Source: Bacteroidia bacterium (lineage in GTDB: Bacteria > Bacteroidota > Bacteroidia > Cytophagales > Cyclobacteriaceae). From it: a stretch of 64,000 nt of DNA. The notes under the pieces were generated by a model. It worked only from the letters and a program-made list of their open reading frames with translations. It was not told where the DNA came from and did no database searches. Below are positions 45,928-64,000 of the stretch, piece by piece (the stretch's first letter is position 1; each line of letters begins with the position of its first letter). A program made the translations under genes and the position numbers. The stretch lies in the NCBI GenBank assembly GCA_030432655.1, contig JAUILA010000001.1, positions 62,001 through 126,000 of the forward strand. The letters run 5' to 3'.

Positions 45928-45939
45928 TATACAAGTATA
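45928..45939. promoter_or_regulatory. Candidate PadR operator
   Basis: TATAC (45928-45932) and GTATA (45935-45939) are perfect inverted arms around AA, 26 bases upstream of the padR start. PadR proteins often bind such short ATAC/GTAT-type repeats, so autoregulation is plausible. Confidence 0.4.
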
Positions 45940-46144
45940 CGGGAAACTACTATGCATGGCCAAGTACTAAGTAAAAAAAATTAGCTTGTAATGAAAATTA
46001 ATTGATAATTAATATATAAAATTAGATAAGTACAATAAAATGATGGATTTTATCCCCCTTTTTACAGGAACAAATGAAGTGGCCTGCCATCTTTGAAAGG
46101 CTTGCGTTACTGTTTTTTCTGCTTAATTGTCGCCGACTTATCTC

Positions 46145-46173
46145 TTGTCATCACACAATAATTAATATATTTA
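46145..46173 (+). promoter_or_regulatory. Candidate promoter for the porV-like gene
   Basis: TTG (46145-46147) and TATATTTA (46166-46173) are separated by 18 bases, close to TTTG-N19/21-TAnnTTTG. The expected start of transcription is about 15 bases before the ATG at 46194. Confidence 0.4.
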
Positions 46174-46193
46174 CAGGATGTACCTGATTTTGG

Positions 46194-47264
46194 ATGACTA
46201 GATATTTCGCGATACTGTGCTGCCTGTTTTCTGTCTCGGTCATGGCCCAGAGTACCGCGCCGAAATACAGCAATGAGTTTCTTGCCATCGGGGTGGGGGC
46301 CAGGGGGCTGGCCATGTCCGGGAGCCAGACCGCGATAACCGGCGATGTAACATCAGCCTACTGGAACCCGGCAGGGTTGATGGACATGGAATCTCCTTAC
46401 CAGTTCTCCCTCATGCATGCGGAATATTTTGCCGGCATCGCCAAATATGACTATGGTGGTTTTGCCATGCAGGTAGACAGTACGGCCGTGCTTGCGTTAT
46501 CAGTTATGCGCTTTGCGGTGGATGATATCCCCGATACACGTTTTCTCTACGATGCCAACGGAGCTATTAACTATGATAATATCCGGTTCTTTTCGGCGGC
46601 GGACTATGCGTTTTTGCTGAGCTACGCCCGAAGGATACCGCAATGGAACAATTTGAAAGCCGGTGCCAATTTCAAGGTAGTGCACCGCAAGGCCGGCGAA
46701 TTTGCCACGGCCTGGGGCTTCGGTCTGGATGCCGGAATCCAATATGAACCAGGTAAATGGAAACTGGGACTCATGCTGCGGGATATTACCGGGACATGGA
46801 ATGCATGGAGCCACAACCCGGAAATGGTTTCGGACATTTACACACAGACGGGCAACGATATTCCGGAGAATTCCGTGGAGATCACTCTTCCCAGGATGAT
46901 TCTGGGAGGTGCTTATCAGTTTGTTCTTCCATCAGATTTCGGGCTGTTGTTGTCGCTGGACCTGATCACCACCTTTGACGGAAAACGAAACACAGTGATA
47001 AAAACAGATTTATTTTCCGTAGAACCAGCCTTCGGACTTGAGATCGACTATAAGGAAATTGCCTACCTGCGGGGGGGAATTGGGAATATACAGGAAATCA
47101 AGGATTTTGACGGATCTGTTCAAAGTGAATTCCAGCCTAATTTCGGCGTGGGTATTAAACTGAAGCAGGTGAACATTGATTACGCCATGACCGATATTGG
47201 AGACCAGTCCGAATCGCTCTATTCACATGTTTTTTCATTGACCGTATCTCTCGATAAAAGATGA
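46194..47264 (+). CDS. PorV/PorQ-family outer-membrane beta-barrel
   Basis: A 356 aa protein with a signal peptide (MTRYFAILCCLFSVSVMAQ) and the family pattern YSNEFLAIGVGARGLAMSGSQTA followed by AYWNPAGLM. In the type IX secretion system, PorV shuttles cargo to the PorU sortase and PorQ works with PorZ. The ATG at 46194 is the only start that gives a signal peptide. It overlaps the C25 protease gene by 4 bases (ATGA), which strongly suggests they form a pair. Confidence 0.88.
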   Translation: MTRYFAILCCLFSVSVMAQSTAPKYSNEFLAIGVGARGLAMSGSQTAITGDVTSAYWNPAGLMDMESPYQFSLMHAEYFAGIAKYDYGGFAMQVDSTAVLALSVMRFAVDDIPDTRFLYDANGAINYDNIRFFSAADYAFLLSYARRIPQWNNLKAGANFKVVHRKAGEFATAWGFGLDAGIQYEPGKWKLGLMLRDITGTWNAWSHNPEMVSDIYTQTGNDIPENSVEITLPRMILGGAYQFVLPSDFGLLLSLDLITTFDGKRNTVIKTDLFSVEPAFGLEIDYKEIAYLRGGIGNIQEIKDFDGSVQSEFQPNFGVGIKLKQVNIDYAMTDIGDQSESLYSHVFSLTVSLDKR

Positions 47265-50200
47265 AAAGGATAATTCTGATCATATTTTTATTAACACTGG
47301 GCCTTTCCTCCAGGGCACAATACGGCAACGAATGGATTGATTATAATAAGTCATACTATAAAATTGAGACCGCCCGGGACGGGATATACAGAATTTCCTA
47401 TGCCGACCTGGTTAGCGTTGGCTTCCCGGTAAATAGTGTGGATCCCAGACGGATTCAGCTCTTTTACCGTGGCAATGAAGTGGCCATTCACATTCAGGGC
47501 CAGGGAGATGCAGTCTTTAATCCGAATGACTACATTGAGTTTTACGGGAGAAAAAATGAAGGATTGCGGGATCAGCAGTTATATCAGCCGGCTGCTTCCC
47601 AGCCACATCCGTATTACAACCTGTTTACCGATACCACGGCTTTTTTCCTGACATACCATCTCACACCCGCAACAGGCAGGCGAATGGATTCCTATTTCAG
47701 GAACAATGTTGATAATATACCGCCGGAATCATCGCACAGACAGGATATTCTCCGGCTTAATACAGACCAGTATGCCCTGGGCAAGAGTTTTAGCATTGAT
47801 GATGTAACCCAGTATACCTATTTTGATGAAGGGGAGGGGTGGACCGGCCTCAGGTTTCAGGAAGGACAGAACAGGAGTTATCAATTAACAGGCGTCACTG
47901 ATATAATTGGCGGGGGTAATCTTGAACTTGAAGTACTACTGACGGGCCGTGATGACCTGCCACATAACGCAACGATTCTGGCTGGGCCTGATGCGGCATC
48001 TCTTCGTGAACTGGGGGTTGTCTCGTGGAGCGAGTATGAATCAACCCTTTTTACCTCAAGTCTTAACAATACTGATATTGCCGGCGATGGTACTGTGCAG
48101 GTTCGTATTGTTTGTAACGGTGTTTCCGGTGGGAATGACCTGATCAGCGTTGGATACGTAAGGATAACTTTTGATCAGGGTTTTTCAGCGCGAAATTCGA
48201 CGGCCGAATTCAATATAGAAGCGACTACCGGATTCCCGGATGCCTTTCTGGAGCTTACTGATATTCCGGCGGGTGCCCTTCTTTACGATATATCGGATAT
48301 TTCTGCAGTCGAGCGTGTTGGATATGTTAGCAACGGCACAAATGGTTCGGCGGTGGTCAGGGATGCCGGAGCAGGAGTTAAACTAATGCTTACTGCAGAA
48401 TTTCTTGTTCCTTCCGTGTCACGGGCTTCCATGCGCAGGGTCGATCTGACATCGGCGAATTTTCTGATTATCAGTCATAAGCATCTGCGGAAACCAACCG
48501 GAAATTCCCAGGATCCCGTCAGGGATTATGCTGCCTACCGTGCCTCGGCAGATGGAGGCGGTTATGATACCCTCACCGTAAATGTGGATGAATTGTTCGA
48601 CCAGTTTAACTATGGCGAAACTTCACCGCTTGCCGTTTACAATTTTCTTGAGAAAGCGGTGGCAGAAGGGGATTTCAGTTATTTGTTTCTGATTGGAAAA
48701 GGCATGGACGCCAGTGTGAATTTTCACCGCAATCCACAGGGATATATTGAGGAGGACGTTTTCGGAACAACCTACCGGATGCGGGACCTTGTCCCGAGTG
48801 CAGGGATGCCGGGTTCAGATATGCATTTCACCGCCGGTCTTGGTGGTCAGCCGCACGTTCCGGCAATCCCAACAGGCCGCATACCTGCCGTCAATGCCGG
48901 TCAGGTACTTGCTTACCTGAACAAGGTGCGGTCAATGGAATCCCAGCCGTTTGATGATCTGTACAGAAAAGATCTGCTGCACCTTTCTGGTGGACTTTCC
49001 TCACTTGAACTTGTGGTATTTAACCGGTACATGAATGATTTTGCGGACATAGCGGAGAATATTTATTTCGGAGGTGAGGTAGCCACCGTGCGAAAGGACA
49101 ATACGGAGGAGGTTCAGTTAATTAACATCAGTGACGAAGTCAACGATGGCCTGAACCTGGTTACGTTTTTCGGACATTCTGCACCTTTTATAACAGATAT
49201 TGACATTGGGTATGTAAGTGACCCGTCCATGGGGTATAACAACCCGGATAAGTATCCGATGTTCCTTGTTAATGGCTGCCAGGCCGGGCAGTTCTTTTCA
49301 GAATCAGTTGTTTTTGGTGAGGACTGGACCCTTGCCCAGAATAAGGGGTCAGTCGGATTTATTGCCCACAGTTCATTCGGATTCTCTTCCTCGCTTCGCC
49401 GGTATACCGAGATGTTTTATGAAACACTTTACGGGGATTCCGTATTCCTAACCAAAGGCGTGGGAGACATTCAGAAGGAGGTAGCCCGACTTTATATCAA
49501 CCAGGTGGGCAATGCAGCGGTGAATGTGGCCCAGGTTGAGCAGATGGTGCTTCTCGGTGATCCTGCTGTTCCGGTTTTTGGTGCCCCGCTTCCTGATTAT
49601 GAGACCAACAGCAATCAGCTGTTCATAACGACACCAAATGACGAGCCCATCACCAATCAGCTGGAGGAAATTTTTATGAATGTGATTGTCCGGAATTTTG
49701 GACAAGCACGAAATGACAGCCTGCGGATAGAGGTAACGCGAACCCTGCGGGACAATACGATGGAGACCTTCGACTCGGTATTTTACCAGGTGTATTACCG
49801 TGATACCCTCCAGGTAAGGATACCCATGGACGCGAATGCATTCGGCAACAATCAGTTTCAGGTGCTGATCGATCCTGAAAATGATCGCGAAGAGCTTAAT
49901 GAAAATAATAACTCGGGTATTCTGAATTTCTTTATACCCAGCAACGCTACCCAAAATCTGTTTCCCGCGAATTTCGGAATTGTGAATAGTCAGACCGTCA
50001 CGCTCACCACCAGTTCCACCAGCCCGTTCAGTCAGAACAGGTCATATACGTTCGAGATTGATACAAGTTCCGTATTCAACAGTCCGGTGCGTCAAACCAC
50101 CACGGTGCAGGGAAATGCCCTTGCATCGTGGCAAGTCACCCTGTTATCATCCGGGGCTGCCGACAGTGCCGTTTACTACTGGCGCACACGATACACTGAT

Positions 50201-52261
50201 CCGGGCGAAGGTGAAAGTGAAGAATGGCAAACCACATCATTTGCCTACATTGAAAACGGACCTGAAGGGTGGACCCAGCGTGAATTTCCGCAATTTGTTC
50301 AGAACCGGTATGCCGGTCTGGAGCCGGATGCGGACAGGAGGATACTCAAATTTGCCGAGACGCCTGTCGACGTAACCGTTTACACGGGTGGTTCTTCATC
50401 CGATGTTACCAATCAGGACGTTTCACTGCGTGTTGGGGGAGCCGAATACATCATTTTTGGACAGGAATGTGCCGATAATACCTTTAACATTGTTGCATTT
50501 GACCGAACCACAGCGGTGCCCTACCTGGCACTGCCTTTTCAGGTTGCGGATCCCAGGACTTGCGGAAGACAGCCGCAGATCATAAACACTTATACCAATG
50601 CCTCCATTGCCTCGGGTTCCGGTGACTTGTTTGCCTATATTGATGCCGTCGATATCGGTGACCCGGTGCTGGCATTCACTATCGGCTACCCTGGTTTTGC
50701 AGGATGGTCGGCTGCCCTCAGAAACAAACTTACGTTGATCGGGCTCGCGGCGGATGAGATTGACAACTGGACGCCGGGCGAACCGGTAATTATCATTGGA
50801 CGGAAAGGAAGTGCCCCCGGGACCGCCAGCATAATACGCTCCGAGGGCATTCCTCTGGAAGAACAGGACCTGACCCTGATCGAAACGATCATTGGCTATC
50901 AGACATCGGCAATACTGGAAAGTACGCTGATCGGACCAGCATCAGAATGGGGAGAATTGCTCTTTCACATCAGCCGGGAAATAAACGATGATGTAAAACT
51001 TGACCTGCTTGGAGTCGGTCTTCATGGGGCAGAAACAGAAATCCGAACTGATATTACCAGCGGCAGCGAAGATTTATCAGCCATTGATCCCGTTCAGTAT
51101 CCCTACCTTCGACTCAGGCTGGCGGTTGCTGACGAAACTGATTTTACCGCACCGGTGGTTAATGACTGGCTGGTGAGCTACGAGACTGTTCCGGAAGGAA
51201 TCATCCTGGCATCATCAGTTGCCCCGCCTCAGGTGGTACTTGATGAAGGAGAAACCATTGAAAATGAATTTAAATTCGTCAACATAGGAGATAAGGAATT
51301 CACAGATTCTCTAGCGGTAACCTATGAGTTATTCAACCGCACCACACGTACGATGCTGGAAGATGAATTCAGGATCAGTGCCCCGGCCCCGGGTGACACA
51401 ACCCGTTTCAGCGTGCTGACTGAGACCAGTGACAATGCCGGTACCATCGACTACCAGGTGTTTGTGAATCCGTTCATTCTCCCGGAACAATATTATGATA
51501 ACAATGTCATTGACCTGGGTGCCTACCTGCAGGTGAATGCCGATAATATAAATCCGGTTATTGATGTCGTTTTTGACGGAGAATATATCATGGACGGTGA
51601 TATTGTATCGCCAACGCCGCTGATTACTGCCCGGATGATGGACAATAATGATTTTCTTCTGAAACAGGATACGACCGGAGTCAACCTGCTTTTTAAAGAA
51701 AACTGCCAGGGTTGTACCTTCCGGCGAATTCCTTTCAGTTCGCCATTACTCACCTGGTACGCGGCCGGGGATGACGAACCTTATCGTATTGAGTTCCGGC
51801 CGGAACGACTTGAAAATGGATTATATTCCCTTCAGCTGCAGGCAGAAGATGCCAGTGGCAACAAGGCAGGAGAAGAGCCCTACGAGATTAATTTTGAGGT
51901 GATCAATGAATCGACCATCACAAATTTTTATCCCTATCCGAATCCTTTTTCCACCAGTACTCGTTTTGTATTTACGCTGACCGGCGCCGAAATACCGTCG
52001 GGAATAAAGATCCAGATCATGACGGTCACGGGCAAGGTGGTCCGGGAGATTACGCAGGACGAACTTGGGCCGGTGCACATTGGTAACAACATTACTGATT
52101 ATGCCTGGGACGGAACCGATGAATTCGGGGATCAGCTGGCCAACGGGGTATACCTGTACAGGGTGTTGCTTCGCCAGACCGGGGAGGCCTTTGAACACAG
52201 ATCGACCGGTGGTGATGCCGCCTTTGACAAAGGGGTAGGTAAATTGTATATTCTGAGATAG
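47261..52261 (+). CDS. C25 (gingipain-type) protease, PorU2-like
   Basis: A 1666 aa secreted protease. Signal peptide MKRIILIIFLLTLGLSSRAQ. The first 400 residues are beta-rich (pro-like). The C25 domain begins near residue 415. The catalytic dyad is H639 (FFGHSAPF) and C673 (VNGCQAGQ), 34 residues apart, close to the 33 reported for gingipain RgpB. Ig-like modules follow, then a C-terminal sorting-like domain (about 1570-1666) with FYPYPNPF and NGVYLYRVLL. PorU is the sortase that cleaves type IX signals; PorU2-type proteins are longer relatives of less certain role. Coupled to the PorV/PorQ-like gene. Confidence 0.85.
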   Translation: MKRIILIIFLLTLGLSSRAQYGNEWIDYNKSYYKIETARDGIYRISYADLVSVGFPVNSVDPRRIQLFYRGNEVAIHIQGQGDAVFNPNDYIEFYGRKNEGLRDQQLYQPAASQPHPYYNLFTDTTAFFLTYHLTPATGRRMDSYFRNNVDNIPPESSHRQDILRLNTDQYALGKSFSIDDVTQYTYFDEGEGWTGLRFQEGQNRSYQLTGVTDIIGGGNLELEVLLTGRDDLPHNATILAGPDAASLRELGVVSWSEYESTLFTSSLNNTDIAGDGTVQVRIVCNGVSGGNDLISVGYVRITFDQGFSARNSTAEFNIEATTGFPDAFLELTDIPAGALLYDISDISAVERVGYVSNGTNGSAVVRDAGAGVKLMLTAEFLVPSVSRASMRRVDLTSANFLIISHKHLRKPTGNSQDPVRDYAAYRASADGGGYDTLTVNVDELFDQFNYGETSPLAVYNFLEKAVAEGDFSYLFLIGKGMDASVNFHRNPQGYIEEDVFGTTYRMRDLVPSAGMPGSDMHFTAGLGGQPHVPAIPTGRIPAVNAGQVLAYLNKVRSMESQPFDDLYRKDLLHLSGGLSSLELVVFNRYMNDFADIAENIYFGGEVATVRKDNTEEVQLINISDEVNDGLNLVTFFGHSAPFITDIDIGYVSDPSMGYNNPDKYPMFLVNGCQAGQFFSESVVFGEDWTLAQNKGSVGFIAHSSFGFSSSLRRYTEMFYETLYGDSVFLTKGVGDIQKEVARLYINQVGNAAVNVAQVEQMVLLGDPAVPVFGAPLPDYETNSNQLFITTPNDEPITNQLEEIFMNVIVRNFGQARNDSLRIEVTRTLRDNTMETFDSVFYQVYYRDTLQVRIPMDANAFGNNQFQVLIDPENDREELNENNNSGILNFFIPSNATQNLFPANFGIVNSQTVTLTTSSTSPFSQNRSYTFEIDTSSVFNSPVRQTTTVQGNALASWQVTLLSSGAADSAVYYWRTRYTDPGEGESEEWQTTSFAYIENGPEGWTQREFPQFVQNRYAGLEPDADRRILKFAETPVDVTVYTGGSSSDVTNQDVSLRVGGAEYIIFGQECADNTFNIVAFDRTTAVPYLALPFQVADPRTCGRQPQIINTYTNASIASGSGDLFAYIDAVDIGDPVLAFTIGYPGFAGWSAALRNKLTLIGLAADEIDNWTPGEPVIIIGRKGSAPGTASIIRSEGIPLEEQDLTLIETIIGYQTSAILESTLIGPASEWGELLFHISREINDDVKLDLLGVGLHGAETEIRTDITSGSEDLSAIDPVQYPYLRLRLAVADETDFTAPVVNDWLVSYETVPEGIILASSVAPPQVVLDEGETIENEFKFVNIGDKEFTDSLAVTYELFNRTTRTMLEDEFRISAPAPGDTTRFSVLTETSDNAGTIDYQVFVNPFILPEQYYDNNVIDLGAYLQVNADNINPVIDVVFDGEYIMDGDIVSPTPLITARMMDNNDFLLKQDTTGVNLLFKENCQGCTFRRIPFSSPLLTWYAAGDDEPYRIEFRPERLENGLYSLQLQAEDASGNKAGEEPYEINFEVINESTITNFYPYPNPFSTSTRFVFTLTGAEIPSGIKIQIMTVTGKVVREITQDELGPVHIGNNITDYAWDGTDEFGDQLANGVYLYRVLLRQTGEAFEHRSTGGDAAFDKGVGKLYILR

Positions 52262-52298
52262 AATCCCCCAATATGGGTGATAGTTTATAAAACATTAT

Positions 52299-52319
52299 TT
52301 TCATTCCCGGGGAATGAAA
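52299..52319 (+). promoter_or_regulatory. Hairpin covering the start codon of the sensor kinase gene
   Basis: TTTCATTCC (52299-52307) and GGAATGAAA (52311-52319) form a perfect 9-base stem with a CGG loop. The ATG of the kinase (52314-52316) lies inside the right arm. In RNA this could limit translation initiation. The core TCATTCCCGGG matches the 8202-8297 repeats. Confidence 0.5.
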
Positions 52320-55300
52320 TTACAGAGCACCATATTTTTTACACTATTCGGCCTTCTCGTCGCATTCAGCGCTGGAGGACAGTCTTATAATTTCGTTAAT
52401 TACTCGATCAGTGACGGCCTGGTTCATGACCGGATAGTGGACTTATGTACCGATCATTACGGGAACCTGTGGGCAGCCACCCTTGGAGGGGGAATTTCGA
52501 GGTTTAACGGTGAGTCTTTTGAGAACATTACCATAAAGGACGGACTGGCCTCTAATTATGTCCGAACCGTTATGGTAGACCGGCGCGGACGACTGTGGGC
52601 AGCCACTGCGGAAGGCATATCCATATACGACGGTTCAGAGTTTACCAATTTCCGGGTGTCCATGGAAGACGATCATAATTCGGTCCATACCCTTTTTGAG
52701 GATAGTAATGGAAACATCTGGTTCTCCTCCTTCGGAGGAAACCTGGGCAGGATCAGCCGTGACGGTCAGCGTATCGACTTTCTGGATTTTCCGAAAATTT
52801 CAGATAATGACAATATCATCGATATTGAAGAAGACAGCCACGGTCGGATCTGGCTTGTATCCTCCATCCAGGGGATGATCGTTTATGAGGACGACACCTT
52901 CCGGACAGTGCTCGAAAATAAGGAATTCGGAGGGTTCCTCCTTTCTATCCAGAACCGTCGTGACACACTGTGGCTGGGTACCAATAAAGGAATAATCCGA
53001 TATCTTCCCGAACAAACCGAGCATCCTGTTGAATTCCTGAACGGCATGCGCAACATGTTCATCAAGTCGATTCACGTGATCGACCGCAATAACTTCTGGG
53101 CAGTTTCAGCCACAGGTATCTATAATTACAGGAACGGGCAACTGCGCATGTTCGGATCGGACCAGGGGTTTACCGATGAGGGGGTTAATGTGATCCTTTG
53201 TGACCGGGAGAATAATTTGTGGTTTGGGACAGACGGGGACGGACTGTACCAGCTCAACAGTGAATTGTTTCTTCATTATAACGAAGATCACGGACTTACC
53301 CGTGAGGCGGTGACATCCATTATCCGGGATAGTGAAAACAACTACTGGTTCGGTACTTTCGGTGACGGGTTGTACCAGTTAAGCGGTGATGGCATACGGT
53401 CTTTTAATGATAACCCGCTGGTCCATAATAAATATGTTTCCAGCAGTATCATGGACAAGGAAAAACGCATCTGGTTCGGACTGCAGCTGGAGGGACTTTT
53501 AGTCTATGAAGAAGGGACTTTCCGGAATATTGGAGAAGAGGACGGGTTTATGTTTACCGGGGTACGGTCGTTGTTTTGCGATAGCGACGGAAGGATATGG
53601 ATAGGTACCGTACAGGGGCTGGCAATGTATGACGGGCAGCAGTTTCATCATTTTACGGTGGCTGACGGTCTGTTTGATAATATAATCTGGGGGATTTCGG
53701 AGCCGGAACACGGACGTGTCATGATTGTCACAAGGGAAGGATTCAATTATTTCCAGGACGATCGTCTGACCGAAGGGTATTACCATCCTGAAGTTTTTAA
53801 TAAACGGATCAATGTAGCCATTCAGGACAATTACGGTAATTTCTGGATTGGGTATTCCGGACATGGCATCATCCGGATCAATGAGGAGACGGGAAATTAC
53901 GAATACATCACAGATGAAAACGGTCTGCACTCAAACCTGATCTATAATCTGATGATAGAAGAAAAGACAGGAGATATTATAGTGGGCACGGAACGCGGAG
54001 TGCTTCGGTTATCGCTGGATTCCAGTGGGCAGATTGAACATATAAAAAACTACATGAGCAACGAAGTCTTTTCAGACCTTCAGACATTGCCTCATTCAAT
54101 ATACCAGGAGGCGGACGGGAGCCTCTGGTTCGGGACCGAGCAGGGTGTTTTTAAATATCAGCCTGAATATTACCGGATTAACGAACACGAGCCCATCGTG
54201 TACGTTTCAGATGTCAAACTGGATTACCACGAAGTGGACTGGAACGAATACGCGGATTCCGTAACCACATGGCATAAGCTTCCTTACGACTTAGACCTGT
54301 CGTACAAGGAAAACAACATAATTGTCCGTTATTTCGGAAACAGCCTGAAGAATCCCGACCAGGTGCGGTATAAATTCCGCCTGGTAGGCCTGGATGATCA
54401 ATGGTCGCCGGAAACTGTTTCGTCAGAGGCTGCATTTACCAACCTGTCTCCCGGAGATTACCGGTTTGAGGTCATAGCCGCCAACAGTGACGGAATCTGG
54501 AATGAGGAGCCCGCCACTTTTGCATTCTCCATCATACCTCCGTTCTGGCAACGCCCTTGGTTCTTTGTAGCGCTGCTTGTGTACTTTATTATCATGATCA
54601 CGCTGTATAATAATTACCGCGTACGATCAAATCTGAATAAGATCCTTACCATTGAAAAAATACGACAGGAGGAGCAGGGCAAAGTGCGGAAAAGAATGGC
54701 ACGTGATTTTCATGATAATATGGGAAACCAGCTGGCCAGTATTACCATGTTTACCAACCTGATCAGTTTAAAACTCAAGGACCGGACGGAGGAGGTGGAT
54801 CAGCTTTTAAAAAATATTGAAAAGCATTCTAAATCTCTTTTTACAGGCACCAAAGATTTTATCTGGTCCATAGATCCGGAAAGTGATAACCTGGATAACC
54901 TGTATACCTATATCAAGGATTTCGGCGAAGAACTGTTTGAGAATACTGAGATTGCTTTTTACTCGGATATTCTTGGCGATTTACGGGAGGGGATTGACCT
55001 TCCGTCAGGATGGAGCCGGCAGCTTGTGCTCATTTTTAAGGAAGCCATGACAAACACCCTGAAGCATGGCGGAGCCACAGAAGTCTATTTTCATCTCGAA
55101 CTTAACGACACCGGTTTCGTACTAATATTAGAGGATAACGGGAACGGATTCGATATGGAGGAGGTCTCCAAAGGCAACGGGTTGCGAAATATGCGAAGCC
55201 GGGCCGATCAGATCGGTGGTGAATTCGTGATCTCATCCACTCCGGGTACCGGAACACGTATTCGCTTTACCGGACAACTAGCCAAAGCAACATTGAAAAA

Positions 55301-55340
55301 TAAGGTCAAAAATATGTTAAACAAAAAACAACAATCATGA
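52314..55340 (+). CDS. Membrane sensor histidine kinase with two-component propeller domain
   Basis: A 1008 aa sensor. Signal/anchor near the N-terminus, then two beta-propeller regions formed by repeats of the LWAATLGGGI / IWFSSFGGN / NLWFGTDGDGLY type (about 30-620) in the periplasm, a Y_Y_Y domain (about 650-745), one helix (FFVALLVYFIIMITLY), and a HisKA_3 domain with H800 in RDFHDNMGNQL. The HATPase part has FKEAMTNTLKHGG, EDNGNGF and NGLRNMRSRADQIGG. Stop and next gene start overlap by 4 bases. It should phosphorylate the NarL-type regulator that follows. Confidence 0.93.
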   Translation: MKLQSTIFFTLFGLLVAFSAGGQSYNFVNYSISDGLVHDRIVDLCTDHYGNLWAATLGGGISRFNGESFENITIKDGLASNYVRTVMVDRRGRLWAATAEGISIYDGSEFTNFRVSMEDDHNSVHTLFEDSNGNIWFSSFGGNLGRISRDGQRIDFLDFPKISDNDNIIDIEEDSHGRIWLVSSIQGMIVYEDDTFRTVLENKEFGGFLLSIQNRRDTLWLGTNKGIIRYLPEQTEHPVEFLNGMRNMFIKSIHVIDRNNFWAVSATGIYNYRNGQLRMFGSDQGFTDEGVNVILCDRENNLWFGTDGDGLYQLNSELFLHYNEDHGLTREAVTSIIRDSENNYWFGTFGDGLYQLSGDGIRSFNDNPLVHNKYVSSSIMDKEKRIWFGLQLEGLLVYEEGTFRNIGEEDGFMFTGVRSLFCDSDGRIWIGTVQGLAMYDGQQFHHFTVADGLFDNIIWGISEPEHGRVMIVTREGFNYFQDDRLTEGYYHPEVFNKRINVAIQDNYGNFWIGYSGHGIIRINEETGNYEYITDENGLHSNLIYNLMIEEKTGDIIVGTERGVLRLSLDSSGQIEHIKNYMSNEVFSDLQTLPHSIYQEADGSLWFGTEQGVFKYQPEYYRINEHEPIVYVSDVKLDYHEVDWNEYADSVTTWHKLPYDLDLSYKENNIIVRYFGNSLKNPDQVRYKFRLVGLDDQWSPETVSSEAAFTNLSPGDYRFEVIAANSDGIWNEEPATFAFSIIPPFWQRPWFFVALLVYFIIMITLYNNYRVRSNLNKILTIEKIRQEEQGKVRKRMARDFHDNMGNQLASITMFTNLISLKLKDRTEEVDQLLKNIEKHSKSLFTGTKDFIWSIDPESDNLDNLYTYIKDFGEELFENTEIAFYSDILGDLREGIDLPSGWSRQLVLIFKEAMTNTLKHGGATEVYFHLELNDTGFVLILEDNGNGFDMEEVSKGNGLRNMRSRADQIGGEFVISSTPGTGTRIRFTGQLAKATLKNKVKNMLNKKQQS

Positions 55341-55966
55341 ATTACTTCAGATCCAGAATAGTTATTGTGGAAGATAATGACGCGGTCAGGGAAGGATTTT
55401 CGCTGATCATAAACAGTATCAGTAATTACTATGTCGTCAGCACCTATGATAATGCGGAGGATGCTATAGATGGATTAAAGAAAGACAAGCCCGAAATTAT
55501 CATCATGGATCTCGAATTGCCGGGAATGAGCGGGATTGAAGCGATCACTGCCATTAAAAAACTCAATCCGGGTATTGAGATCCTGGTAAACACCATTTAT
55601 GAAAACAGCGAACTGGTTTTCCAGGCCTTATGTGCAGGGGCTTCCGGGTACATCACCAAAAACACGAATCACACAGAATTGCTTACGGCAATCAAAGAAG
55701 TAATACAGGGAGGGGCACCGATGACCTCGAATATCGCCAAAATGGTGGTAAAGTCATTTCAGCGAAATCCTAACTCCCCCATATCCGCCCGGGAGACCGA
55801 GGTGCTTGAATTACTGGCCAAGGGTAAAAGCTACAGTATGATTGCCAAGGACTTATTTATTACTAAAGAAACCGCAAAAAGCCATATAAAAAACATCTAC
55901 GCTAAACTCCAGGTAAACAGTAAATCAGAAGCAATTGCCAAAGCAACCCGGGATAAACTGATCTGA
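55337..55966 (+). CDS. NarL/LuxR-type response regulator
   Basis: A 209 aa regulator. Receiver: acidic pair E12-D13, phosphoacceptor D58 in IIMDLELPG, lysine in GYITKNT. The C-terminal helix-turn-helix (about 145-205) has SARETEVLELLAKGKSYSMIAKD and KSHIKNIYAKL. It is translationally coupled to the propeller sensor upstream. Its likely targets are the SusC/SusD genes that follow; a terminator separates them. Confidence 0.94.
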   Translation: MNYFRSRIVIVEDNDAVREGFSLIINSISNYYVVSTYDNAEDAIDGLKKDKPEIIIMDLELPGMSGIEAITAIKKLNPGIEILVNTIYENSELVFQALCAGASGYITKNTNHTELLTAIKEVIQGGAPMTSNIAKMVVKSFQRNPNSPISARETEVLELLAKGKSYSMIAKDLFITKETAKSHIKNIYAKLQVNSKSEAIAKATRDKLI

Positions 55967-55989
55967 CTGTACCCCTAAACAGGTGATGA

Positions 55990-56025
55990 CCCGTGTTAAT
56001 ATTTCAGGTAATACGGGGGATTTTT
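55990..56025 (+). terminator. Intrinsic terminator after the response regulator
   Basis: CCCGTGTTA (55990-55998) pairs with TAATACGGG (56009-56017); the only deviation is one G-U pair. The 10-base loop is followed by GGATTTTTA. It lies 24 bases after the stop. Confidence 0.7.
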
Positions 56026-56046
56026 ATGCGCATTCATATGAGGAAC

Positions 56047-56081
56047 TTAGTTAGAAGGGAAATAACCCCATTTCTAACTAA
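56047..56081 (+). promoter_or_regulatory. Perfect inverted repeat in the leader of the first susC
   Basis: TTAGTTAGAA (56047-56056) and TTCTAACTAA (56072-56081) are perfect 10-base arms with a 15-base spacer, ending 11 bases before the susC ATG. It could be an operator for the adjacent NarL-type regulator or an RNA hairpin in the leader. Confidence 0.5.
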
Positions 56082-56092
56082 CCAGATCTCAT

Positions 56093-59000
56093 ATGAAACA
56101 CTTTTTACTTCTTTTATTATTTAGTACCGGTGCTTTTATGGCACAGGCACAGAACCGAACAATTTCCGGTACGGTAACTGACCAGGAATCGGACGAACCG
56201 CTTCCCGGGGTAAACGTGATCCTTCAGGGGACCACAATTGGTACCGTTACAGATATAGACGGGAATTACCAGCTTGAAATAAGCGGCGATAACCCCGTAC
56301 TACTGTTTTCTTACGTGGGGTACATCACCCAGGAAATCCCTGTTGATGCAAGGACGAATATCAATGTCGGGCTGTCCCAGGATATAACCCAGCTTAATGA
56401 GGTGGTGGTTGTCGGGTACGGTACCCAGATTAAAAGGAACCTTACCGGCAACATCGCCCAGGTAGATGGGAAGGATATTGAAAACATCCCTACCACGAGC
56501 ATTGAGAATACACTCCAGGGACGCACTGCCGGAGTTTTCATCCAGCAGGGGAGTGGGAAACCAGGACAGGCGATTAAAATGCGTGTACGTGGTTCTTCAT
56601 CCATTACGGCGAGTAACCAGCCATTATTTGTGGTGGACGGAATTCCCATTACCAGTGAAAACCAGGGGATTACCAATAATGAGCCGACTAACCCGCTGGC
56701 AGATATCAATTTCAATGATGTGGAATCCATTGAAGTACTCAAAGATGCTTCGGCAGCGGCAATCTACGGTTCCCGTGCCGCGAACGGAGTGGTGATTATT
56801 ACTACCAAATCCGGACGCTCCGGAAAGACGCAGTTTAACGTGGATTATTCGCTTGGTTACAGCGAACCCAGTAATAAAAGAGACTGGCTGAACGGAGAGC
56901 AATACAATGAATTATTTGATGAAGCATATAACAACTCAAAAGAAGATTTCGGATTTGAACCGGCCGAATTCTTCGGTTTATCCAACCTGGAAGAACTGAA
57001 GGATGCCGCCATTCCGGGATGGAGAGATAATAACAACACCGACTGGCAGGACGAAGCTTTCCGTACCGGCCGGATCAATCAATTAAATGTTTCGGCATCA
57101 GGCGGCGATGATAAAACACGCTTCTACTTCGGTGGTTCTTTCACCGACCAGGAGGGGATTCTCATAGGAAATGATTTTAATCGCCTGAGCGGACGGCTTA
57201 ACCTGGACCATAAGGTCTCGGACCGTTTTTCCTTTTCGAGTAATTTTAACCTGGTGCGTACACAGCTTGATCGGGTGGCCAATGACAATGCCTTTGCCAC
57301 CCCGTTGCAGCTGGTCGCACTCCCGCCGGTCCAGCCGAAAATTGATCCGGAAACCGGCCGTCTGAATACCAATACAGTCTATTACAACGGATTGATCCAG
57401 CATCGTGATGCAACCGCCAATACGGTCATTTACCGTACCCTGGCCAATGCACAGGGAAATTTCAAAATTACCAATAACCTGTTGTTCACTTCCAAGTTTG
57501 GACTGGATCTGCTTAACCAGATTGAGGATAATTACCAGGGGCGTGAGACCCAGGACGGTGCTCCGGCAGGTCAGGGCGAGTTCAGATCGGTTCGGGTGGT
57601 GAATTACACGGTAGACAACTACCTGACCTATACCCCTGTCATATCGGAAACGAATACACTCGAAGTGGTGGCAGGTCTCAGTTATCAGCAATCGGACCGG
57701 ATACTTGGGTCCATCCAGGCCCGGGGATTTCCCAGTGACGCTTTTAAAAAGATCGCGAGTGCCGCGGAAGCCGAGGCTTTCACCTCGCTGGGATCGCGAT
57801 TTTCCTATACGTCGGTTTTTGCCCGAGCCAACATGCAATTCTTTGACAAGCTGCTGGTTTCCCTGAGCGGACGGGTGGACGGGTCCTCCCGATTCGGGGA
57901 AGATAACCGTTACGGATTTTTCCCGGCGGTATCTGCAGGATGGATCGTGACACAGGAACCATTCCTTGGAGGCAGTAACCTGGTAAGCTTCCTGAAACTG
58001 CGGGCCAGCTACGGTCTTACGGGTAATTCCGAGATCGGTAATTTTGATGCCCTCGGACTATACCAGGGGACAAGTTATGGCGGATTATCAGGAACCAGGC
58101 CCATCAGCGTGCCGAGCCCGGACCTGAAGTGGGAAACAACCCGGCAGATTGATATCGGAATTGATTTTGGGTTGTTCGATGACCGCATAACCGGTGAAAT
58201 TGATTACTATCTCAAGAAAACAGATGATCTCCTTCTGGATGTTAATGTTCCGGCCACCAGTGGTTTCGGGGTCGTAACACAGAATATTGGTAAACTGGAG
58301 AATGAGGGCTTTGAATTTGTTCTGAATACACAGAATCTTACCGGTCCGCTTTCGTGGTCGACCAGCCTGAATCTTGCTTACAATACGAACGTAATAACCG
58401 ACCTGGAAGGACAGATCATCACTTCTGGTATCAACCGGGCGGAAGAAGGGTATCCGATAGGGGTATTCTATATGGTCAAATATGCAGGCGTTAACCCGGA
58501 GACGGGAGATGCTATGTTTGAACTGGGAGATGGCAGCGGCGAACTTACCAACGATTATTCAGCTGCCATGGAACAACATGTCGGATCCCCTTTTCCTGAC
58601 TGGATCGGGGGGATGACAAACACCTTGTCGTATAAAGGATTTGAGTTGTCATTCCTGTTCCAGTTTGTTACGGGCAACCAGATCTTTAATGATGCCGGAA
58701 GTTTCCAGACATCCGGATTTGATTTCTTTGATAACCAGACAGCCGATCAGCTTGACCGCTGGCAACAACCCGGTGATGTGACCGATGTGCCGGAAGTACG
58801 TTTTCTAGGCGGAAACGGGGTGGATAACTCAACCAGGTACCTGTATGACGGTGACTATCTTCGACTGAGAACCATGACACTTGCCTATGAGTTGCCCGAT
58901 CGCTGGCTGACACCACTCAGTTTGAGAAACGTTCGTGTGTATTTAACGGGGCAGAACCTGCTAACCTTCACAGGTTATGAAGGATGGGATCCTGAAGTGA

Positions 59001-59113
59001 ATTTCGATGGCACAAACCCCGCTAATCAGACGAATAATATCCGCGGCGGCCGTGATTTCTACACCGCGCCTCAGCCGCGCTCACTCATTTTCGGAGTTAA
59101 GTTTGGTTTTTAA
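56093..59113 (+). CDS. SusC/RagA TonB-dependent outer-membrane receptor (pair 1)
   Basis: A 1006 aa receptor importing a macromolecule or oligomer across the outer membrane. Signal peptide MKHFLLLLLFSTGAFMAQAQ; a carboxypeptidase regulatory-like domain (TISGTVTDQES to GNYQLEISG) at about 24-95; plug domain with EVVVVGYGTQIKRNLTG and VRGSSSITASNQPLFVVDG; then the 22-stranded barrel ending SLIFGVKFGF. There is no visible FecR/sigma or glycan enzyme gene, so the substrate is unknown. The SusD partner follows by 11 bases. Confidence 0.95.
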   Translation: MKHFLLLLLFSTGAFMAQAQNRTISGTVTDQESDEPLPGVNVILQGTTIGTVTDIDGNYQLEISGDNPVLLFSYVGYITQEIPVDARTNINVGLSQDITQLNEVVVVGYGTQIKRNLTGNIAQVDGKDIENIPTTSIENTLQGRTAGVFIQQGSGKPGQAIKMRVRGSSSITASNQPLFVVDGIPITSENQGITNNEPTNPLADINFNDVESIEVLKDASAAAIYGSRAANGVVIITTKSGRSGKTQFNVDYSLGYSEPSNKRDWLNGEQYNELFDEAYNNSKEDFGFEPAEFFGLSNLEELKDAAIPGWRDNNNTDWQDEAFRTGRINQLNVSASGGDDKTRFYFGGSFTDQEGILIGNDFNRLSGRLNLDHKVSDRFSFSSNFNLVRTQLDRVANDNAFATPLQLVALPPVQPKIDPETGRLNTNTVYYNGLIQHRDATANTVIYRTLANAQGNFKITNNLLFTSKFGLDLLNQIEDNYQGRETQDGAPAGQGEFRSVRVVNYTVDNYLTYTPVISETNTLEVVAGLSYQQSDRILGSIQARGFPSDAFKKIASAAEAEAFTSLGSRFSYTSVFARANMQFFDKLLVSLSGRVDGSSRFGEDNRYGFFPAVSAGWIVTQEPFLGGSNLVSFLKLRASYGLTGNSEIGNFDALGLYQGTSYGGLSGTRPISVPSPDLKWETTRQIDIGIDFGLFDDRITGEIDYYLKKTDDLLLDVNVPATSGFGVVTQNIGKLENEGFEFVLNTQNLTGPLSWSTSLNLAYNTNVITDLEGQIITSGINRAEEGYPIGVFYMVKYAGVNPETGDAMFELGDGSGELTNDYSAAMEQHVGSPFPDWIGGMTNTLSYKGFELSFLFQFVTGNQIFNDAGSFQTSGFDFFDNQTADQLDRWQQPGDVTDVPEVRFLGGNGVDNSTRYLYDGDYLRLRTMTLAYELPDRWLTPLSLRNVRVYLTGQNLLTFTGYEGWDPEVNFDGTNPANQTNNIRGGRDFYTAPQPRSLIFGVKFGF

Positions 59114-59124
59114 TAATGATACAG

Positions 59125-60516
59125 ATGAAAAAAATATATATAGCAATAACGACACTGGCAGTATTTCTGGGTCTTCCGGCCTGTGATAATAAACTGGATG
59201 TCGAACCACAGCAGTCAATCAGCTCCGATGTGGCGCTTAGCAGCTCGGAGAATGTCGTAAACGTACTGATCTCGGGATATAGCGAGATAGGCGGGCAATT
59301 CGGGACCGCATCTGACGGCCGGCCGGAAGGCGGCGAACTTTTTGGTGCCGATTTTAACCTCTTCAGTGAATTGATGGGCAATGACGGGGAAATTACCTGG
59401 AACGGCACCTTTGATACCTATGAAGATGTGTTTGACAAGGACCTCATCGATGATAATGCCTTGGCCCGGGACAACTGGATGCGGGCGTACAATACCATCA
59501 ATATCGCAAATACGGTTCTTGATAATATTGATATCGTTGATGAGGGAATCCGGTCACAGGTACGGGGAGAAGCCTTGTGGCTTCGTGGGACCCTTTTATT
59601 TGAACTGGTCAGGGTGTATGCACTTCCATACGAAGCCGGGGAGGCCAATGACCAGCCCGGGGTCCCGATCGTACTGACCGGAACCACCCAGATTGATGAG
59701 AGCGCATTTGTAAGCCGGGCCACAGTGGCAGAGGTCTACCAGCAGGTGCTGGAAGATCTTACCACCGCTGAAACCCTGATGGAAGAGCGCAATGGATTCT
59801 TTGCCAATACCTATGTGGCCACCGCCACACTTTCCCGCGTGTATCTTCAGCAGGAGAATTACGCGGCAGCAAGGGACGCGGCAAACCGGGTGATCACCGA
59901 AGGAGGTTACCAGCTGGTAAGTACCTATGCGGATGTATTCAACAACGCATCGAATACTTCTGAAGATATCTTTGCGGTTCAGCAAAACTCCACGTTTAAT
60001 GCAGGTACATCCAATTCCGGACTCCAGACCTTTTACGCCAACCTGCCGGGAGTGGGCCGTGACGGAGATATTGATATTCTCCAGAAACATCTTGACCTGT
60101 ATGAAGACGGAGATGAACGTCTGGAGCTGTTCTACGTTGGCGAAGACGGACAACCGAAGACCGGTAAATGGGCTTCCAACGGCACAAATATCCAGGTGAT
60201 GCGGCTGGCAGAAATGTATCTGACCAGGGCCGAGGCTAATTATCGTCTCGGAACGACGGTAGGAGCCACCCCCCTGGAAGACATCAACCTGATACGTGAC
60301 CGTGCCGGGCTGTCTGATCTGGGATCTGCAGACCTCGACGATATTTTGCTGGAACGGAGAAGGGAACTGGCATTTGAGGGCCAGCGACTGCACGACCTGA
60401 AACGTACGAAGCAGGATGTAAACGGATTTCCCTATAACTCCGATGATATGGTGTTTCCTATTCCGAGACGTGAAACAGATGTAAATCCAAATCTGGAACA
60501 GAATCCCAAATACTGA
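59125..60516 (+). CDS. SusD/RagB nutrient-binding lipoprotein (pair 1)
   Basis: 463 aa from the start MKKIYIAITTLAVFLGLPACDN at 59125; an ATG 9 bases upstream is an alternative. The lipobox ends LPAC, so the protein is lipid-anchored and sits on the SusC barrel as its lid. SusD features include RGEALWLRGTLLFELVRVYALPY (tetratricopeptide-like helix), MRLAEMYLTRAEANYRLG and ERRRELAFEGQRLHDLKR, ending NPNLEQNPKY. It is co-transcribed with susC and followed by a terminator. Confidence 0.95.
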   Translation: MKKIYIAITTLAVFLGLPACDNKLDVEPQQSISSDVALSSSENVVNVLISGYSEIGGQFGTASDGRPEGGELFGADFNLFSELMGNDGEITWNGTFDTYEDVFDKDLIDDNALARDNWMRAYNTINIANTVLDNIDIVDEGIRSQVRGEALWLRGTLLFELVRVYALPYEAGEANDQPGVPIVLTGTTQIDESAFVSRATVAEVYQQVLEDLTTAETLMEERNGFFANTYVATATLSRVYLQQENYAAARDAANRVITEGGYQLVSTYADVFNNASNTSEDIFAVQQNSTFNAGTSNSGLQTFYANLPGVGRDGDIDILQKHLDLYEDGDERLELFYVGEDGQPKTGKWASNGTNIQVMRLAEMYLTRAEANYRLGTTVGATPLEDINLIRDRAGLSDLGSADLDDILLERRRELAFEGQRLHDLKRTKQDVNGFPYNSDDMVFPIPRRETDVNPNLEQNPKY

Positions 60517-60537
60517 GGTAACCTAAAAAGGGGGAAG

Positions 60538-60560
60538 GGGGATGCAAATCCCCTTTTTTT
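60538..60560 (+). terminator. Intrinsic terminator after susD 1
   Basis: GGGGAT (60538-60543) pairs perfectly with ATCCCC (60548-60553) around GCAA, followed by seven T residues. It ends the first SusC/SusD transcript. The remaining stretch to 60717 holds no gene; it must contain the promoter for pair 2. Confidence 0.88.
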
Positions 60561-60717
60561 ATGCCTTTTTTCTAAATACCGCCATTTTTTTCATTCGATT
60601 TGGGGGATTCATCCCGCAAGGCAAATCGGCAACTTTGGGGTAAGGTGGATTTTTTATTTGTGTGGTGATAATGCGCTGCAACCCACTGAGTCATTTTTCA
60701 TTTCAAAACAAATTTAT

Positions 60718-63700
60718 ATGAAGAAGTTTTTACGAATTTGCTTCCTCGTTCTGTTCCTGGCCCCTGGGGTTGTTCTGGCACAAACGGAAGTTTCTGGAAA
60801 GGTGACCTCCGCTGATGACGGATCTTCTTTGCCAGGTGTAAACGTAGTAGTCAAGGGAACCGCCCAGGGTACGGTTACAGATATCGATGGCAATTACCGG
60901 ATTAATGTACCCGACGGCAATGCCACCCTGGTATTTTCATTTATTGGTCTTAGTACCCAGGAGATAACCGTCGGAGACCGTACATCCATTGATGTTACGA
61001 TGACCACGGATACCAAACAACTCGGTGAGGTGATCGTGACTGCTGCCGGGATTGAGCGTGAACAACGCGCTCTGGGATACAGTGTGCAGGAAGTGGACGG
61101 ACAGGATCTGTCGCAGAAAAGCACGAATAATGTATTTGAATCATTACAGGGAAAAGTTGCCGGCCTTAACATCAATCAGAATTCAGGTGCCCCGGGTGGT
61201 GGAACCACTATACTTATCCGGGGGGCGACCTCACTGGCTGGTAACAGCAGGAATTCACCGCTGATCATTGTTGATGGTATTCCGATCGACAACGATTTTG
61301 TGCGTGGTGATGTAGGGTCCGGGTCGGCTGAAGTATTCGGAAGCGGATCTATTGGCGGAGGCCGCGGATTCGATATCAATCCGGAAGACATAGAGGATAT
61401 TACGGTACTGAAAGGGCCGGCCGCGGCTGCCTTGTATGGTATCCGTGCCGCCAACGGGGCTATCGTGATCACAACAAAAAGACCCTCCAATCTGCGTGGT
61501 ACATCAGTTACCGTTTCTTCATCGTTCAACCTGTCGCGGGTCAATATTCTCCCGCAGTACCAGAATGAATACGGCCAGGGATTGTCATTCCGCCACCATT
61601 CTCCCGTTTCATCCAATTCATGGGGAAGGCCATTTGGCGCTATTCCCAATGATTCCATCACGGATCATAACGGAAACCGGGTGCCGTATGTGGCGTACCC
61701 TGATAACGTTCGTGATTTCTTTAACGATGGCTACCTGTGGACCAATAATGTGGAACTTGCCGGCAGCAACGGGGCTTCCGGGTTTATCGTATCGCTTGGG
61801 CGAACAGACCAGAGCGGGATTATTCCGGAGTCTGATCTTCAGCGTACCAATATCAGGCTGGCAGGGAGCACCCAGCTGCTCGATAAACTGCTTTTAAGCG
61901 GTAGTTTTCAGTATATCAATACACAGCTTCAGGGCTCACCCCAGGGAAATAACGGATCATCCGTATTCTTTATCATGCCAAGTATTCCCCGGAGTTATGA
62001 CCTGAATGGTCGTCCGTATGAGATCAACGGGCAGCAGAATTTCTATTCGTCCAATGATCATCCGTTGTGGTCAGCGATCAATAACCCGTCGACTAATAAA
62101 ATTGATCGTTTTCTGGGAAATGTGAAACTGGGATATGATTTCAATGACTGGTTATCCTTGAATTACCAGTTCGGGTTTGACGTGAACAGCGAAAACCGTA
62201 AGGAAGTTTATGCGCGCGGAAGTGCCCGTTTCAATGATGGTCTGATCATTCAGGATGAACTGTCTTTCCAGCTGTACGAGTCTACACTCCTGCTGACTGC
62301 CGACAAGGATTTGAGCGAGGATTTCAATCTGAATGTGACCCTCGGACATAACCTCAACAGTACCCGGCGTGACCGGTTTATTGTACAAGGCACAGGTATT
62401 ACCACGCCGGGTATCAATAATATCCTTAACACGGAAAATGTCATTGTTGACACAAGGAATGGCGTTTGGTTTAACCGCCGCCTGATGGGCGTATTTGCGG
62501 ATGTAACCCTCGGGTACCGTGACTGGGCTTTCCTGAACGTGACCGGGCGTAATGACTGGTCTTCCACTTTGCCGCTGGACAACAACAGTTTCTTTTACCC
62601 GAGTATCAGCGGTACCCTCATCTTTACGGATGCCCTGAACATGGACAGTGATATACTCTCCTTCGGAAAACTGAAGGCAGCATACGCAACCGTGGGTAAT
62701 GATGCGCCTCCGTTCCTGACAACCACGACCTACGTTGTACCAAGTCTGGGAAACAATACGGGAGGCGTTAATTTTCCATTCCTTGGGAATGCGGCATTTA
62801 CGCAGAGTAATATCCTGGGCAACGATAACCTGAAGCCGGAGGAAACCTCGTCCCTTGAATTTGGGATCAACCTGGGCCTTTTCAATAATCGGTTCAACGT
62901 GGATGTTACGTACTACGACCAGGAAACTAAAGACCAGATATTGTTTCTCCAGTTACCTGTTACCACCGGATATACACAGTTTGTAACCAATGCCGGGTCG
63001 ATCACCAACAAAGGGTGGGAAGCTGTCGTGACCGCTGAAATCCTGAATCGTGGTGCCATCCAGTGGGATGCAATTGTGAACTTTTCCCGGAACAGGAACC
63101 AGGTGAATGAACTTGCTGAAGGTCTTGATGCAACGTTCCTTTCCGGATTTACCGGGGCGGAATCAAGCGCTGTAGTTGGTGAACCGCTGGGTGTATTCAG
63201 GGGTACTCCATACGCAACAGATCCCGAAACAGGCCAGTTGCTGGTGTTAGGCAACGGACCCAACCGGGGAACGCTTTTCAACAGCACCGAGTATGAGGTA
63301 GTCGGAGATCCGAACCCGGACTGGAATGCCTCGCTGATCAATCGTCTTTCCTGGAAAGGCCTGAGACTTGGTGTTCAGTTTGATATACAATACGGCGGCG
63401 ACATCTGGTCCAACACTATTGGTTTTGCCAGTGTGCTTGGGTCTATTGAGGAAACTGCCGTTGACCGTGAGGCACCGCGCGTGATCCCCGGATATCTTGT
63501 GGATGCTTCCGGAGAATTCATCCTGGATGACGCCGGAGAAAAAGTGACCAACAATATTCAGGTTGATGCCCAGACTTACTGGAGAAGTGTCAGCGGATCT
63601 TTCTTTGAAGGTTCGGTATTTGATGCCTCCTATGTCAGGTTGCGGGAAATAACCATTGGGTACACATTTCCTTCGGCACTGGTCGACAAAACACCGTTCA

Positions 63701-63873
63701 ACTCATTTGACGTATCGTTTTCAGGACGGAACCTCTGGACCTACGCGCCCAATTTGGGCGGACACATTGATCCCGAAGTTGCCAATGCGCCAGGTGCACT
63801 CGCACGGGGTCTGGAATGGAATTCATCACCCGGACTGGTCAACTACGGATTCAATATCAAATTCACATTTTAA
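60718..63873 (+). CDS. SusC/RagA TonB-dependent outer-membrane receptor (pair 2)
   Basis: The ATG at 60718 (MKKFLRICFLVLFLAPGVVLAQ, a signal peptide) gives 1051 aa; the upstream in-frame extension has no secretion signal. CarboxypepD-like domain (VSGKVTSADDG to GNYRINVP), plug with LGEVIVTAAGIEREQRALGYS and LIRGATSLAGNSRNSPLIIVDG, and a glycine-serine insertion in the plug (VGSGSAEVFGSGSIGGGRG). The barrel ends LVNYGFNIKFTF. It differs clearly from the first SusC, so it probably has a different substrate. SusD 2 begins 3 bases later. Confidence 0.95.
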   Translation: MKKFLRICFLVLFLAPGVVLAQTEVSGKVTSADDGSSLPGVNVVVKGTAQGTVTDIDGNYRINVPDGNATLVFSFIGLSTQEITVGDRTSIDVTMTTDTKQLGEVIVTAAGIEREQRALGYSVQEVDGQDLSQKSTNNVFESLQGKVAGLNINQNSGAPGGGTTILIRGATSLAGNSRNSPLIIVDGIPIDNDFVRGDVGSGSAEVFGSGSIGGGRGFDINPEDIEDITVLKGPAAAALYGIRAANGAIVITTKRPSNLRGTSVTVSSSFNLSRVNILPQYQNEYGQGLSFRHHSPVSSNSWGRPFGAIPNDSITDHNGNRVPYVAYPDNVRDFFNDGYLWTNNVELAGSNGASGFIVSLGRTDQSGIIPESDLQRTNIRLAGSTQLLDKLLLSGSFQYINTQLQGSPQGNNGSSVFFIMPSIPRSYDLNGRPYEINGQQNFYSSNDHPLWSAINNPSTNKIDRFLGNVKLGYDFNDWLSLNYQFGFDVNSENRKEVYARGSARFNDGLIIQDELSFQLYESTLLLTADKDLSEDFNLNVTLGHNLNSTRRDRFIVQGTGITTPGINNILNTENVIVDTRNGVWFNRRLMGVFADVTLGYRDWAFLNVTGRNDWSSTLPLDNNSFFYPSISGTLIFTDALNMDSDILSFGKLKAAYATVGNDAPPFLTTTTYVVPSLGNNTGGVNFPFLGNAAFTQSNILGNDNLKPEETSSLEFGINLGLFNNRFNVDVTYYDQETKDQILFLQLPVTTGYTQFVTNAGSITNKGWEAVVTAEILNRGAIQWDAIVNFSRNRNQVNELAEGLDATFLSGFTGAESSAVVGEPLGVFRGTPYATDPETGQLLVLGNGPNRGTLFNSTEYEVVGDPNPDWNASLINRLSWKGLRLGVQFDIQYGGDIWSNTIGFASVLGSIEETAVDREAPRVIPGYLVDASGEFILDDAGEKVTNNIQVDAQTYWRSVSGSFFEGSVFDASYVRLREITIGYTFPSALVDKTPFNSFDVSFSGRNLWTYAPNLGGHIDPEVANAPGALARGLEWNSSPGLVNYGFNIKFTF

Positions 63874-63876
63874 GAC

Positions 63877-64000
63877 ATGAATACAATGAAAAGTAACTAT
63901 ATATTTCTATTGGTCAGTCTTCTTCTGTTCACAGGATGTGAAGACTGGCTGGATATAAACAACGATCCGAATAACCCGGTCGATGTTTCGCCGGACAGGA
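63877..64000 (+). CDS. SusD-like nutrient-binding lipoprotein (pair 2, 3' part outside window)
   Basis: Only 41 codons are visible. The signal peptide and lipobox read MNTMKSNYIFLLVSLLLFTGC, followed by EDWLDINNDPNNPVDVSPDR. The DWLDINNDPNNP motif is typical of SusD-like_2 proteins, a branch distinct from classic SusD. It is the partner of the preceding SusC. Confidence 0.88.
   Translation, partial: MNTMKSNYIFLLVSLLLFTGCEDWLDINNDPNNPVDVSPDR

Follow-up and report, generated by a model that had tools for sequence, protein, structure and literature searches.

The window, meaning the whole 64,000-nucleotide stretch of DNA that was analysed, comes from the genome of a Cytophagales bacterium. A check of its open reading frames (ORFs) placed seven of them exactly where an initial annotation had put them, and the locus is laid out as follows.

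43089..45506, minus strand: envelope-stress protein with HAAS, two PspC, LiaI-LiaF-TM, toastrack and DUF2807 domains (Pfam), divergent from porV2
45555..45902, minus strand: PadR-family regulator gene (PF03551, 65.6 bits)
45935..45975, no strand: putative palindromic PadR operator of the AGTACTATGTATGGCCAAGTACT type, core GGCCAAGTACTAAG at 45958
46194..47264, plus strand: porV2, PorV/PorQ-family outer-membrane barrel, 356 aa (NF052325)
47261..52261, plus strand: porU2, C25-family type IX secretion system (T9SS) sortase-like protease, 1666 aa (NF052324)
52263..52281, no strand: operator-like palindrome ATCCCCCAATATGGGTGAT in the porU2–kinase gap (matrix scan and motif discovery)
52314..55340, plus strand: HTCS-like sensor histidine kinase, 1008 aa (Pfam: Reg_prop, Y_Y_Y, HisKA_3, HATPase)
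55337..55966, plus strand: NarL/LuxR-type response regulator, 209 aa (Response_reg 93 bits, GerE 62 bits)
55969..56021, no strand: two weaker operator-like sites upstream of susC1 (12.6 bits at 55969, 10.3 bits at 56003)
56093..59113, plus strand: susC1, TonB-dependent importer (TIGR04056, 865 bits)
59116..60516, plus strand: susD1, surface lipoprotein (SusD_RagB, 98 bits)
60531..60560, plus strand: terminator-like hairpin after susD1 (13-pair stem, then a T run)
60590..60608, no strand: operator-like site upstream of susC2 (13.8 bits)
60718..63873, plus strand (ORF 60658-63873): susC2, TonB-dependent importer (TIGR04056, 638 bits)

The porV2 and porU2 ORFs share a 4-nt overlap, as do those of the kinase and the regulator. 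The true start of susC2 is probably the ATG at 60718 rather than the ORF start at 60658. Two SusC/SusD pairs had been annotated initially; both SusC genes and susD1 lie in the window, whereas susD2 starts at 63877 and is almost entirely outside it (L003:1877-3307; SusD-like_2, 261 bits). Profile searches recovered the SusC–SusD tandem by which polysaccharide utilization loci (PULs) are recognized, and no carbohydrate-active enzymes among the proteins scanned to ~9 kb downstream, in line with the earlier statement that glycoside hydrolases are missing. An Rfam search of 45000-64000 gave no match, so known RNA elements do not account for the gaps. A perfect 10-nt inverted repeat (TTAGTTAGAA/TTCTAACTAA, 56047-56081) directly precedes susC1, and a perfect palindrome at 52299-52319 spans the kinase start codon, where a hairpin could possibly block kinase translation. 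Downstream of pspC on the minus strand (39083-43064) are an ECF sigma gene, genes of unknown kind and a barrel gene.

PorU2 matched the PorU_rel_Nterm model NF052324 with 976 bits (cut-off 450) over positions 3-879 of the 879-position domain and Peptidase_C25 with 197 bits, and PorV2 matched PorVQ2 (NF052325) with 547 bits (cut-off 325). Both fell short of the canonical models, PorU2 with 223.6 bits for PorU (NF033707, cut-off 420) and PorV2 with 31.6 bits for PorV (NF033710, cut-off 250). The C25 His/Cys dyad, H639 and C673, is where the initial annotation had placed it and is invariant across the sequences of 22 relatives, as is PNPF at 1560-1563 in the FlgD-like/CTD-like C-terminal domain; the description of a PorV/PorQ-like barrel overlapping a PorU2-like C25 protease was therefore accurate. 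The same genome carries a canonical porU–porV pair on contig C47; a third member of the PorV family, on contig C36, is probably PorQ. Sequence searches of the PDB with PorU2 and PorV2 returned no match, and PorU2 is not named in the literature that we searched. Given its family, its dyad and its pairing with a PorV-like barrel, PorU2 most likely acts as a second sortase.

The closest named PorU2 proteins are from Fulvivirga (49–51% identical). PorU2 was above cut-off in 34 of 39 relatives and in 28 of 296 genomes drawn evenly across the phylum. PorV2 passed its cut-off in 28 of the 39 relatives, 27 of which also had PorU2 above cut-off, the exception being an 83% complete genome; at named loci, porV2 accompanied porU2 in 51 of 74 cases. 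PorU2 was present with no PorV2 detected in G013, G015, G017, G019, G024, G033 and G034, the last of which has two PorU2 genes. The porV2–porU2 pair is thus widespread in Cytophagales, and it is already named in NCBIfam.

The constant neighbour of this pair is the divergent upstream unit of padR and the HAAS–PspC–toastrack–DUF2807 gene, found at 59 of 67 loci (those of the 80 named PorU2 loci whose upstream sequence extends 4.5 kb or more); padR itself was present at 63 of the 80. In the window the unit comprises the toastrack protein, whose HAAS match is below the Pfam cut-off (21.2 versus 27 bits), and the stand-alone PadR gene. Of 63 padR genes, 40 had a GTAC...GTACY pattern in the preceding 400 nt, compared with 35 of 1440 control windows. 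The palindrome at 45935-45975, in the padR–porV2 gap, is kept across Cytophagales and is the probable PadR operator. Toastrack/PspC proteins with PadR have been described as an envelope-stress signalling unit in work that mentions neither PorU nor type IX secretion (PMC11237479), and our literature search for the T9SS together with PspC gave nothing relevant. The conserved neighbour of porV2–porU2 is this unit, not the sensor, and the order-wide linkage offers a testable lead on the second T9SS sortase pair.

As the initial annotation had it, a sensor with a propeller (Reg_prop/Y_Y_Y) comes next in the window, followed by its Response_reg–GerE partner; a HisKA_3 kinase with such a partner makes this a NarL/LuxR-type system. 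Conservation of this order is restricted; at other loci different genes lie downstream of the protease pair. Among 33 relatives, porV2–porU2 was found at most loci and a downstream sensor and regulator at one; a kinase lay downstream of porU2 at 8 of 62 named loci. Direct passage from porU2 to kinase and regulator was seen in the window and at eight named loci, of which seven are Fulvivirga-type and one (L161) comes from a more distant metagenome-assembled genome with a degenerate kinase beside the regulator. In the PorU2 tree these seven and the window form one group (SH-aLRT 97), together with one further member whose downstream sequence is absent. SusC2–SusD2 follows the regulator at five of the seven; the F. 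marina junction lacks it and keeps the FabH gene that lies beyond it at the window locus. Several Fulvivirga-type loci also keep the ECF sigma and barrel genes beyond pspC, so the clade retains gene order generally and order alone shows no functional link. At L140, a 47%-identical regulator lies ~1 kb downstream of porU2. The kinase remnant at L161 (15133-16356) has 407 aa, lacks the propeller and has a degenerate ATPase with no recognizable HATPase; the regulator alongside is 80% identical to that of the window.

Regulator orthologues occurred in 11 relatives (52–80% identical, 52–86% with named loci included), and porU2 adjoined only in G011. Kinase, regulator, SusC2 and SusD2 stood together apart from porU2 in G004, G012, G013, G015 and G024, and the same set minus the kinase did so in G009 and G016. 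In G004, G009, G015, G016 and G024 the regulator-linked SusC was the best match to SusC2 in its genome. A short lipoprotein-like gene lies 3' of SusD2 in the window locus and the loci inspected. With occurrences apart from porU2 in five genera, the kinase–regulator–SusC2–SusD2 set is a module in its own right.

On reading the intergenic gaps, we saw a palindrome of a C run and a G run recur, with the form ATCCCCC-N5-GGGTGAT (7-5-7). Motif discovery returned TCCCCC-N5-GGGTGAT from the regions upstream of the kinases (log-likelihood 127.0 versus 50–57 for shuffled sequences) and AATCCCCCAAATT-type motifs from those upstream of regulator-linked SusC genes (107.7 versus 48–54). Using a scan matrix trained solely on the kinase-upstream sites, the regulator-linked SusC upstream regions outranked 661 control regions (p = 1.3e-9). 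For those SusC1 orthologues that are unlinked to the regulator, upstream enrichment was marginal (p = 0.037). With the same matrix, regions upstream of porV2 showed no enrichment (Mann–Whitney p = 0.67), and an operator shared with porV2 was rejected on this ground.

The matrix scan covered 122 kb of the window's own contig, in which the site at 52263 ranked first (26.6 bits), the site in the susC2 gap second, and those in the susC1 gap among the leaders. Whole-genome site searches were pattern searches, and 52263 was the only zero-mismatch copy in the window's genome. The susC1 and susC2 sites are half-palindromes, weak when taken singly, with ~3–5% of control regions scoring as high. A 10.9-bit site at 46052, 123 nt upstream of porV2, is not conserved in relatives. 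At two loci outside the training set, a site preceded the kinase or regulator (L124, 23.5 bits; L118, 22.0 bits). Sites lie 18–48 nt before most linked kinases and 137–145 nt before unlinked SusC2-type genes. A few one-mismatch sites occur in relatives without the regulator as well, and G004, although regulator-bearing, has zero sites at one mismatch. In G013 there are ~24 scattered copies of ATCCCCCTTTGGGGGTAAT, an apparently unrelated repeat.

Sites unlinked to the regulator also recur upstream of importers. On contig C21 of the window's genome, a third SusC–SusD pair (L239:4066-8583, G000:C21) sits behind lepA–folD–OmpA genes and has a one-mismatch site 90 nt upstream; at the corresponding Fulvivirga locus the operator is retained and the SusC gene belongs to another subfamily. 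Sites precede susC2-like/susD2-like pairs by 145 nt in G016 and 137 nt in G028; the regulator gene of G028 has a site upstream as well. We chose 12 strong, AT-centred sites by eye in four Fulvivirga genomes (F. marina, sp. M361, kasyanovii and imtechensis) and read their context afterwards; orthologous sites among them are not independent. Four of the 12 lie 36–141 nt upstream of a SusC gene, comprising the lepA–folD counterpart of the C21 locus in three genomes (138–141 nt) and one other SusC (36 nt). Another four, one in each genome, lie 88–94 nt upstream of a double retropepsin-like aspartyl protease with a PDZ domain. In G034 and G012 a member of this protease family is the immediate neighbour of the regulator, and in G011 a shorter one follows a perfect site. 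In two related Fulvivirga genomes, a site falls between serine dehydratase and aminotransferase genes. The window's genome has further operator-like sites near XdhC, MobA-like and MoCoBD molybdenum-hydroxylase genes (L238:7194 on C11 and L240:5376 on C40).

For the substrate, PDB sequence searches with SusD1 and SusD2 gave generic SusD-like matches with no substrate indicated. Around ten SusC1 orthologues, no common catabolic gene appeared among the neighbours scanned, which encoded an Mrp-type antiporter, DNA ligase, gyrase, FtsH and similar proteins and hence gave no substrate hint. The operator-bearing protease in some genomes and the lack of carbohydrate-active enzymes nearby favour peptides as the imported substrate. 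The original guess of peptide import thus gains some support from the retropepsin-like protease, which bears the operator in Fulvivirga or stands beside the regulator in two genomes, with the substrate itself deduced from this context.

Taken together, we favour, with a probability of about two in three, a reading in which two modules lie head to tail: padR–pspC with porV2–porU2, and a self-regulating sensor that controls importers through the palindrome. PorV2 and PorU2 would most likely function in the manner of the T9SS attachment pair PorV/PorU, as a second sortase or processing pair serving a subset of its cargo. The propeller kinase would sense a periplasmic ligand and phosphorylate the NarL/LuxR-type regulator, which would bind ATCCCCC-N5-GGGTGAT and, in whichever direction, control its own operon from the porU2–kinase gap, SusC/SusD pairs both adjacent and unlinked and, in Fulvivirga, the retropepsin-like aspartyl protease. 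The importers would take up the degradation products of some non-glycan polymer, peptides being the most probable. Autoregulation of the sensor is probable, and control of several SusC/SusD pairs and, in some genomes, probably also of a protease is the best reading of the recurring sites and is consistent with peptide scavenging.

The initial annotation had put the protease and the importers under one sensor, coupling surface proteolysis to uptake of the products. The palindrome supports the part of this claim that concerns sensor and importers; control of the T9SS-type protease pair by the same sensor is not supported. The modules do share a strand and adjoin across a 52-nt porU2–kinase gap, an arrangement held in the window and seven Fulvivirga-type loci although the PorU2 proteins are only ~50% identical, which leaves room for a functional link; the regulator orthologues near porU2 in L161 and L140 and the weak site at 46052 point the same way. 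However, the modules are apart outside this lineage (L161 excepted), the retained ECF sigma and barrel genes reflect a generally stable order, and the palindrome lacks enrichment upstream of porV2 and instead lies between porU2 and the kinase, which leaves the sensor with a control region to itself, for which reason we see the sensor as separately controlled. We consider a single regulatory unit unlikely; the sequence evidence speaks for two modules under separate control that came to lie side by side in a single lineage.

Less probable again is that PorU2/PorV2 is a surface nutrient protease feeding the importers directly, rather than a secretion-system component. The C25 family includes the gingipains, the CTD-like C-terminal domain suggests a surface location, and importers adjoin this porU2 locus; yet the best match is to the PorU2/PorU architecture over 880 residues, PorV2 almost always travels with PorU2, and the conserved neighbours are not importers. 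The least probable of these alternatives holds that the genes are chance neighbours, with the palindrome bound by another factor or an unrelated repeat and the SusC adjacency a reflection of SusC abundance. SusC/SusD importers rank among the most numerous Bacteroidota genes, with dozens of SusC genes per genome here (~50 first-look candidates in the window's genome), and C-rich repeats such as that of G013 occur in some genomes, but near-constant site spacing, recurrence outside the training set and scores above shuffles and controls all argue against chance.

The reading of two modules can be set beside several known systems. Like PorU–PorV of Porphyromonas gingivalis (PG0026/PG27), the window pair combines a C25 Cys/His dyad and CTD-like C terminus with an adjacent PorV-family barrel. 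It differs in its porV2–porU2 gene order and divergent padR–pspC neighbour, and PorU2 is ~540 residues longer than canonical PorU and ~23% identical to the PorU of its own genome. The HAAS–PadR/PspC/toastrack systems described previously (PMC11237479) have the same domain set in one gene with a stand-alone PadR, whereas here the unit is the conserved divergent neighbour of porV2–porU2.

The importers resemble RagAB, the peptide-importing type of SusCD, in pairing SusC and SusD without glycoside hydrolases, although SusD2 is SusD-like_2. To our knowledge, neither a regulator nor a substrate has been assigned to most Cytophagales SusC/SusD importers. PULs are known to be regulated by SusR, hybrid two-component systems (HTCS) and ECF sigma/anti-sigma pairs. 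The window shares with the HTCS of Bacteroides PULs a periplasmic Reg_prop/Y_Y_Y propeller kinase beside SusC/SusD; HTCS fuse a receiver and AraC domain to the kinase, whereas here a separate regulator gene has a LuxR (GerE) output domain. Reported SusR-like and HTCS regulator motifs consist of direct repeats separated by long spacers (PMC3878776), in contrast to the short palindrome and split kinase/regulator architecture found here. Our literature search for LuxR/NarL-regulated SusCD gave nothing relevant. We propose, tentatively and at somewhat less than even odds, that SusR, HTCS and sigma/anti-sigma are joined by one more class of SusC/SusD regulator, in which a split propeller kinase and NarL-type regulator may act through a 7-5-7 palindrome. 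In Cytophagales its dispersed regulon would comprise several SusC/SusD pairs and a retropepsin-like protease with a PDZ domain and would serve to acquire peptides; in the Fulvivirga lineage its control genes would be fixed behind a second T9SS sortase pair. With a concrete operator sequence, such a regulon can be read from genomes and tested.
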